DNA of 64,000 nt from Comamonadaceae bacterium. GTDB taxonomy: Bacteria; Pseudomonadota; Gammaproteobacteria; Burkholderiales; Burkholderiaceae_C. The DNA lies in the NCBI GenBank assembly GCA_009996515.1, contig JAACZV010000002.1:1-64000 (forward strand). Direction: 5' to 3'. The translations under genes and the position numbers were made by a program. This document shows positions 1,343 through 50,379 of this stretch, piece after piece; position 1 is the first letter of the stretch, and each line of letters opens with the position of its first letter. A model generated the notes under the pieces. That model was given only the letters and a program-made list of their open reading frames with translations. It was not told the DNA's origin and did no database searches.

Positions 1343-2012
1343 GCCCGAAACCCTTGTTCAAGTTGACCAGATCACCAAGCGCGTGCGCGACGCGACCGGA
1401 GAGCTGACGATTCTGCATGACATCAGCTTCACGCTGAGCGCGCGCGAGTCGGTCGCCATCGTCGGCGCCTCGGGCTCGGGCAAGAGCACGCTGCTGGCCA
1501 TCCTCGCGGGCCTGGATACGCCCAGCAGCGGCACCGTGAAGCTGCGCGGCCAGGACTTGTTCACGCTGGACGAGGACCAGCGCGCCGCGGTGCGTGCGCG
1601 CGAGCTGGGCTTCGTGTTCCAGAGCTTCCAGCTGCTGCCCAACCTGACGGCGCTGGAGAACGTCATGCTGCCGCTGGAGCTGCGCGGCGAGCGCGACGCC
1701 CGCGACCAGGCCGCGGCCATGCTGGAGCGCGTGGGCCTGGGCGAGCGCCTCGGGCATTACCCGCGCGTGCTGTCCGGCGGCGAGCAGCAGCGCGTGGCGC
1801 TCGCGCGCGCCTTCGTGCAGCGCCCGGCGCTGCTGCTGGCCGACGAGCCCACCGGCAGCCTGGACTTCGCGACCGGCGCCGCGGTGATGGCGCTGATGTT
1901 CGAGCTCAACCGCGAGGCCGGCACGACGCTGGTGCTGGTCACCCACGACCGCGAGATCGCGGCGCGCTGCGACCGCCAGCTGCGCATCGAGGCCGGCCGC
2001 CTCGCGACATGA
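1341..2012 (+). CDS. ybbA: ABC transporter ATP-binding protein, YbbA/LolD type
   Basis: This is an ABC ATPase of 223 aa. Walker A is GASGSGKST at residues 42-50, the signature is LSGGEQQR, Walker B is LLLADEPTG and the H-loop is VTHD. It belongs to the MacB/LolD/YbbA group that works with FtsX-like permeases. No permease gene follows here: the gene runs into a terminator. I chose the ATG at 1341 because the family N-terminus starts there and the upstream frame is the antisense of tesA. Its start overlaps the tesA start head to head, so its promoter must lie within tesA. Confidence 0.9.
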   Translation: MPETLVQVDQITKRVRDATGELTILHDISFTLSARESVAIVGASGSGKSTLLAILAGLDTPSSGTVKLRGQDLFTLDEDQRAAVRARELGFVFQSFQLLPNLTALENVMLPLELRGERDARDQAAAMLERVGLGERLGHYPRVLSGGEQQRVALARAFVQRPALLLADEPTGSLDFATGAAVMALMFELNREAGTTLVLVTHDREIAARCDRQLRIEAGRLAT

Positions 2013-20598: not shown

Positions 20599-20708
20599 GA
20601 AAAAGTCTCCTCAGGTGCGTGTGATCTAGGGCCCCGAGCGGGCTGCCGGGGCCTGCGCGGCGGAGCTTAAGGGCGGCCCCCGGGCTGTAAGGGGAGCGTT
20701 TACCCATG

Positions 20709-20975
20709 GGAGCCTCCTGGGCTTGGGGACGGGTCCGCGTTGCCCCTGAAAGCAGGCTCAGCCTAGGCGCAAAGCGGAGCGATACCGGGGGTATCGCGAG
20801 CATTTGCAACGACGGATCAGCCTGCTTTCAGGGGCAACCCGGAGGGCCGGGGCGATTTGCCGGGCGATCCGGCGTTGCACGCTCGTCGCGTGCCACCGGC
20901 ACGCGCCTCGCCTGCGCCTTGTCTCGCCCGGCAACTCGCCCCGGCGCGGGCCCGTCCCCAAGCCCAGCAGGCTCC
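20709..20975 (+). repeat. Structured four-stem element, copy 1 (upstream of ppa)
   Basis: Nested inverted repeats: stem 1 20709-20739 with 20945-20975 (31 nt, one mismatch and one G-U); stem 2 20740-20758 with 20819-20837 (19 perfect pairs, directly stacked on stem 1); stem 3 20847-20867 with 20924-20944; small hairpins at 20779-20797 and 20887-20905. Unpaired islands shared with copy 2 are AGGCGCAAAGCGGAG (20765), GCGAGCATTTGCAACGACGG (20796), CCCGGAGGGC (20838), GGCGTTGC (20871) and GCGCCTTG (20914). It ends 38 nt before the ppa ATG and just before a TAGAAT that resembles a -10 box. The rest of the hppA-ppa gap shows nothing else. Confidence 0.85.
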
Positions 20976-21013
20976 GTAGAATGCGGGTTTTCCTTGACCC
21001 CAGAACGACGACC

Positions 21014-50056: not shown

Positions 50057-50069
50057 ACTTGCGTGGCAT

Positions 50070-50330
50070 GAGGTTGCTAGGCTCTCCCATGTGCCCGCGC
50101 AAGCCACAAAAAGGCTCCAACCGAGGCGTAAAGCGAAGACGGGCTCTTGCCCGGCGAGCATTTGCAACGACGGGTGGGGCCTTTTTGTGGCTTGCCCGGA
50201 GGGCTGGGCAGCCCAGGGCGCTGCGCGGCGTTGCCCCTCTTGCCCGGACGCGAGTCCGGGCGGCGAAGGGCGCCTTGCTCAGCGCCCTTGGCTATTCCAG
50301 CGCGGGCGCATGGGAGGGCCTAGCAACCTC
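50070..50330 (+). repeat. Structured four-stem element, copy 2 (upstream of clpP)
   Basis: Same plan as the copy before ppa. Stem 1 is 50070-50100 with 50300-50330 (31 nt, two G-U pairs). Stem 2 is 50101-50117 with 50177-50193, again with no spacer after stem 1. Stem 3 is 50203-50223 with 50280-50301. Hairpins are at 50140-50153 and 50242-50261. Shared islands are AGGCGTAAAGCGAAG (50124), GCGAGCATTTGCAACGACGG (50154), CCCGGAGGGC (50195), GGCGTTGC (50227) and GCGCCTTG (50270). It ends 49 nt before the clpP ATG, right at a CATAAT that resembles a -10 box. Confidence 0.85.
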
Positions 50331-50379
50331 ATAATCCGCCCCCATAAGTAAACAGACGCAATTGCTTCCAAGGATTTGA

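Follow-up and report, generated by a model that had tools for sequence, protein, structure and literature searches.

The window analysed here, a stretch of 64,000 nucleotides from a Comamonadaceae bacterium, carries an element of 267 bases before ppa (copy 1) and a second element before clpP (copy 2). In both copies, a pair of outer arms and two inner hairpins can be delimited; the scores given for the hairpins are those of a covariance model, and their strand is that of the core on which the model matches.

20709 to 20739, no strand assigned: left outer arm of copy 1, its left terminal inverted repeat (inverted-repeat search and end comparison)
20734 to 20843, plus strand (core strand): first inner hairpin of copy 1, containing the islands AGGCGCAAAGCGGAG and GCGAGCATTTGCAACGACGG (model match 20749-20829, 79.1 bits)
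20846 to 20945, minus strand (core strand): second inner hairpin of copy 1 (model match 20855-20935, 65.9 bits)
20945 to 20975, no strand assigned: right outer arm of copy 1, its right terminal inverted repeat (inverted-repeat search)
50068 to 50100, no strand assigned: left terminal inverted repeat of copy 2 (inverted-repeat search)
50095 to 50199, plus strand: first inner hairpin of copy 2 (model match 50108-50185, 78.4 bits)
50210 to 50293, minus strand: second inner hairpin of copy 2 (model match 50213-50291, 65.1 bits)
50300 to 50332, no strand assigned: right terminal inverted repeat of copy 2 (inverted-repeat search)

The outer arms measure 31 nt in copy 1 and 33 nt in copy 2 and are 94% complementary in both. 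The inner arms pair 20734-20763 with 20814-20843 and 20846-20867 with 20924-20945 in copy 1, and 50095-50123 with 50171-50199 and 50210-50226 with 50277-50293 in copy 2. The inverted-repeat search thus agrees with the first-pass annotation, which had read one plan of self-pairing outer and inner stems in both copies. Its figure of 56 nt inside the third stem is correct for copy 1, whereas the arm limits set by the tool leave 50 nt in copy 2, where the choice of the arm ends decides the count. The minimum free energies are -204.9 kcal/mol for copy 1 and -201.9 kcal/mol for copy 2 (z -14.1 and -14.8), and none of 200 dinucleotide shuffles was as stable for either copy. Mechanically called open frames of at least 30 amino acids overlap both copies and mostly extend into the flanks; the paired layout of the elements argues against coding. 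The reading frame of ppa stays open back to 20804, inside copy 1.

Between the two copies, the islands agree at 20/20 (GCGAGCATTTGCAACGACGG), 13/15 (AGGCGYAAAGCGRAG), 10/10 (CCCGGAGGGC), 8/8 (GGCGTTGC) and 8/8 (GCGCCTTG) positions, so that the counts reported earlier are borne out on re-reading both sequences. The 20-base island GCGAGCATTTGCAACGACGG occurs exactly at two places in the genome, namely the two window copies, and at seven places if up to three mismatches are allowed (reversed control: none); its exact form was absent from the viral contigs searched.

Are the two copies part of a larger family? The genome itself holds further two-hairpin elements with the same plan but other stems (C11, C22 and C24) as well as single hairpins (C6, C3 and C16). 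Ten hairpin cores align well, with a double change in 15 of 19 predicted pairs, and a covariance model of the inner hairpin, R1, recovers 13 hairpins from this genome (E up to 1). Beyond it, R1 matches 39 of 60 genomes of the order (own genome included), with hairpins per genome ranging from 0 to at least 76 (highest in G012) when up to 77 candidates per genome were scored, and, at E up to 1e-5, 54 of 274 genomes of the class (own genome included; 48 of 222 genera) in a scan that scored at most 16 candidates per genome. An element whose islands are conserved and whose stems change in compensation, as proposed from two copies, is therefore found again by the model in this genome and many others. 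Rfam returned nothing on the whole window at the gathering score but two tRNAs elsewhere in it; no existing family reaches this score on the element, in line with the earlier reading, which knew no name for it. When the Rfam scan was relaxed for copy 1 and four further loci, nothing but microRNA and snoRNA models below threshold came up, and a plasmid collection queried with the C22 element gave no match. A strict core pattern was found in 93 stretches of named genomes; among the 80 listed, nearly all are labelled Burkholderiales or genera of that order, among them Pelomonas/Roseateles, Rubrivivax, Thiomonas, Lautropia, Hydrogenophaga and relatives of Acidovorax. From the fetched loci, which are mainly the best-scoring ones listed and not a random sample, we assembled 132 elements, counting near-identical and a few orthologous copies (e.g. 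L031 and L187): 80 with two hairpins in plus-minus order, 47 with a single hairpin and 5 with other layouts. Two-hairpin elements measure 264-276 bp as a rule and single-hairpin elements about 161 bp.

The hairpin core is the conserved part. Across 59 hairpins from 37 sources, 91.6% of the cells are paired (61.9% after shuffling) and the covariation is 0.704, compared with 0.186 after shuffling and at most 0.113 in slid controls, in an alignment (A3) that had been fitted to the structure of the model. Almost no variation is seen in CAAGGCG (5' side) and GCAACG (3' side), while stems and loops vary. Among 30 hand-chosen, hence not random, elements, 387 of 435 pairs have ends whose similarity lies in the random range, and in 139 of those the cores exceed the highest shuffled value; the coupling between ends and core is weak (r 0.2). 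The elements of G271 and G143, for example, are 86% identical in their cores and 46% in their ends (shuffled mean 54%). Judged by these sequence comparisons, the hairpin core is conserved across unrelated end types. MITEs (non-autonomous transposons) are usually grouped by their ends. A conserved inside with varying ends, spread over these 54 genomes and 48 genera, would imply a function inside a MITE; our literature search found no description of such a function, or of a core conserved across end types.

How did the elements come to lie before ppa and clpP? Copy 1 (region 20697-20985) separates GCGTTTACCCAT from a TAGAAT upstream of ppa, where the relatives show just a few bases. Nineteen relatives had a ppa match; in all 13 compared, the site is without the element and the TAGAAT, to which copy 1 lies directly upstream, is present. 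The clpP site is likewise without the element in all 18 relatives compared (G016 gave no orthologous match). Here, copy 2 (region 50058-50345) splits a conserved block, CTTGCGTGGCCATAATCCGCCCCCATAAC in many relatives, which reads CTTGCGTGGCCATAATC..CCCCATAA in many of them and contains ATAAT in 18/18, and which we take to resemble a heat-shock (sigma-32) promoter. Compared with the relatives, about five bases of the target are missing at copy 1 and one C at copy 2, and neither window copy shows a clean target duplication. The right arm of copy 2 (CTAGCAA) may substitute for the lost upstream half of the promoter-like block; a simple consensus scan of the ppa and clpP regions found no sigma-70-type promoter. 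Both window copies were thus inserted at sites that are empty in relatives, as is typical of MITEs, and these mobile insertions sit within the apparent promoter regions of both genes.

Mobility is also evident from copies elsewhere. Genome G009 contains five copies that are 97.9-100% identical over about 270 bp and have different flanks, and such dispersed near-identical copies, a hallmark of MITEs, identify a mobile, MITE-like element. Since near-identical copies at different sites carry the same arms, the arms travel with the element. The alternative origin of the stems that had first been offered, an inverted arm copied from the flank, is contradicted by this and also by the absence of the 31-33 bp arm sequence from the flanks of the empty sites. 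What had been described as an outer stem is the terminal inverted repeat of a mobile element, which the earlier note overlooked. For individual insertions in G009, the insert of L058 is absent in 7/7 orthologues checked, although the intergenic stretch is too diverged to define an exact target duplication; at L059 only the left flank was recovered in 5/5 orthologues, and at L057 only the right flank in 3/4, with a doubtful left match in the fourth.

Several loci show partial or unusual forms. L068 and L069 (G032) share 139 identical bases, comprising one hairpin and one end, and differ in the rest, L068 being a single-hairpin element; judging by this pair, loss or exchange of hairpin modules seems to occur. 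At L164:363-436, L165:378-430 and L166-L168, type A ends (see below) form short palindromes in which the inside is mostly or wholly missing, and three of these lie in the window's own genome; such palindromes resemble what a deletion would leave of the element. At L415:1391-1703, a tRNA-Leu gene (1619-1703, minus strand) has its 3' end just a few bases away from the end of an element.

Which transposase could move these elements? The type A end, AGGGCCTGTTMACNCTACG, occurs in six genomes as inverted pairs, mostly about 249 bp apart, and also bounds an element of about 0.8 kb with two overlapping ORFs, which match DUF4096, DDE_Tnp_1 and the NCBIfam IS5 model. For type A ends, terminal repeats common to the MITE-like and the autonomous element are therefore observed. 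G002 and G004 carry the ends of the IS5-type element as well, and G014 and G023 have less exact versions of them. The ends of copy 1 resemble the end of L252 in genome G012 (AGGAGGCTGTCGGGCTTGGGG); searches with NF033580 in 40 genomes and PF01609 in 12 found no autonomous partner for the ends of the window copies. The IS5 model NF033580 has no match in the window's own genome and none in 19 of the 40 genomes, 11 of which carry hairpins (G000, G007 and G008 among them), and DDE_Tnp_1 has none in 5 of another 12 genomes that contain copies, one of the five being G328, a single contig. Within the transposase elements at 11 loci scanned, no hairpin core was found below E 0.02, the best match at these loci (15.7 bits, L353:47-121) lying outside the element. 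At L163:365-526, close to a contig end, the full IS5-type element is preceded by a second copy of its left end, with an N between the two, possibly an assembly join.

Subgroups of IS5 insert at YTAR, TA or TNA targets. The ends were analysed in 20 of the 47 single-hairpin elements and in 46 two-hairpin elements, namely those whose ends fitted the patterns. Single-hairpin elements are flanked by TNA on 17/20 left and 16/20 right sides, and the TNA is identical on both sides in 10/20 (permuted mean 4.8, P 0.001). Type A elements have YTAG on 27/46 left ends; identical flanks, in 12/46 versus 10.4 permuted, are not above permutation. Single-hairpin elements (L036, L039, L041, L207, L215, L250 and others) often begin in or right after the apparent stop codon of an upstream gene; these stop codons (TGA, TAA or TAG) overlap the TNA target, and the elements are antisense to the upstream gene.

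How do the stems keep pairing while their sequence differs? Among 78 distinct two-hairpin elements, 42 two-sided changes were counted between elements of 93-97% identity, where 4.5 were expected, and 552 between those of 88-93% identity (76.5 expected). Because such all-pair counts are not independent, a nearest-neighbour comparison was used, which drew on 57 of the 78 elements and gave 250 two-sided changes against 28.8 expected. Changes from one Watson-Crick pair to another number 226, of which 133 are of the transition type and 93 are not; the latter therefore cannot pass through one G.U step. Individual events can be followed: L057 and L061 have one paired difference, for which L060 is intermediate, and the interior of L061 is identical to those of L058 and L059. 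Paired changes of this kind fit a correction from arm to arm, with or without selection, and the family constitutes a natural data set, intermediates included, for palindrome arms that change together.

Could mutation suffice? Arms made complementary purely by mutation, through quasi-palindrome correction or flank copying and without structural selection, would account for the paired changes within near-identical copies (L057 and L061, with L060 between them) and for the 93 of 226 changes that are not of the transition type. Such a process should, however, erase mismatched islands, yet CAAGGCG and GCAACG are kept class-wide; moreover, the flanks of the empty sites are without the arm sequence, and the cores have a strand-specific excess of wobble pairs. 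We therefore regard a purely mutational origin as unlikely.

This wobble excess bears on the form in which the core acts. Equal numbers of G.U and A.C pairs are expected if only double-stranded DNA matters. Read on the core strand, the core pairs instead show G.U to A.C ratios of 14:2 in the family and order set and 27:1 class-wide, although the model-fitted alignment may favour G.U; the stems of single-hairpin elements, aligned without the model, show 136:8 (44 hairpins). There is little asymmetry in the stems of two-hairpin elements at 9 bp or more from the core (29:27 and 26:16), and no strand preference in the outer stem (50:47, summed from per-pair rows); the figures for single-hairpin stems and for two-hairpin stems away from the core leave out the three-hairpin elements (G.U 0, A.C 2). 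The core strand also folds better in 44 of 47 single-hairpin elements and in 23 of 31 class-wide hairpins, and it seems that every core is read in the form of a folded single strand.

The wobble pairs make RNA the first guess for the core. Within one element, however, the cores are usually found on opposite strands, and together with the neutral outer stem this means that a single RNA does not explain the pattern. The selection on RNA structure suggested by the first-pass annotation is hence supported only in part: the wobble asymmetry around the hairpin cores fits it, the element read as one transcript does not. Where both neighbours run in one direction, single-hairpin elements lie antisense to them 27 times out of 30, according to a crude frame caller applied to 45 of the 47 such elements (42 with both flanks called); this orientation argues against a role in the transcripts of those neighbours. 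It is quite improbable that we are dealing with a structured non-coding RNA gene or a cis-regulatory RNA of ppa and clpP that is conserved for an RNA function there: the strong folding, the covariation, the G.U excess on the core strand and the position of both copies just upstream of these genes would all suit it, but the sites are empty in the 13 and 18 relatives examined, near-identical copies are dispersed among different flanks, and the outer stem (50 G.U, 47 A.C) is without strand preference.

Least probable of all is a REPIN-like element that depends on a RAYT (Y1 tyrosine transposase) for its movement, with the two inverted hairpins acting as single-stranded DNA, a link that we rejected since, for all the paired inverted hairpins, their strand-specific fold and the presence of Y1 genes in 49 of 60 genomes, the hairpins do not flank Y1 genes (30 loci scanned, none with a hairpin at E below 0.1), Y1 genes are also present where no hairpin matched (genomes G011, G021 and G031), and TNA ends and long terminal repeats fit a DDE element. 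A RAYT-like Y1 gene is present at the same place in three genomes of the genus (L136, L144 and L147), between two genes that we take, by sequence, to be dGTPase-like and glutamate-synthase-like.

We consider it probable, at roughly three chances in four, that the window elements are MITEs of one superfamily with a structure-selected core. As non-autonomous transposons they would be moved by a transposase supplied in trans, which we infer to be most likely of the IS5 family and which would recognise the terminal repeats that form the outer stem and use TA-type targets (YTAR or TNA) for insertion. Within the element, two hairpins in inverted orientation, one per strand, would each present a conserved asymmetric internal loop of CAAGGCG opposite GCAACG, and the core would be selected, through whatever reads it, as a folded single strand, probably RNA and less likely single-stranded DNA. 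A transcript that crosses the element from either side would then carry one correctly oriented hairpin. The stems could keep pairing while their sequence turns over through arm-to-arm templated correction together with selection on the fold.

We also venture a more far-reaching reading, which we hold to be possible but would not rely on: the double hairpin may be an independent module that parasitises transposons, having acquired the ends of different IS5-type elements time and again. It would then act across the class as a folded signal specific to one strand, either RNA or single-stranded DNA, and correction of one arm from the other would keep rewriting its stems. If true, fold and loops would be inherited here, and not sequence. 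Returning to MITEs with a structure-selected core as the preferred reading, the group is apparently undescribed, and an internal module conserved across the class would apparently be a new aspect of MITEs.

How does the group compare with known systems? For the QMITE elements of Coxiella, which are MITEs, transcripts with stable folds are predicted (review PMC10969869), and the present elements resemble them as MITEs with a predicted stable fold; they differ in a conserved internal loop common to several end types, of which the excerpt of that review makes no mention for QMITE. With the type II MITEs of the IS5 family, they share small size, TA-type targets, dispersed near-identical copies and, for type A, terminal repeats common to an IS5 element. 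Unlike those, they have an interior that does not stem from the IS loci tested and that is conserved across unrelated end types and genomes, whereas the ends are normally the main constrained part of a MITE. Like REPINs or BIMEs with their RAYT, they combine two inverted imperfect hairpins in one larger structure and occur in many copies, but they have long terminal repeats and TNA or YTAR ends, and no hairpins lie beside the Y1 genes scanned. In integron attC sites, variable complementary stems surround conserved unpaired bases and the fold is strand-specific; the hairpin cores described here share all three traits, a resemblance in principle only.
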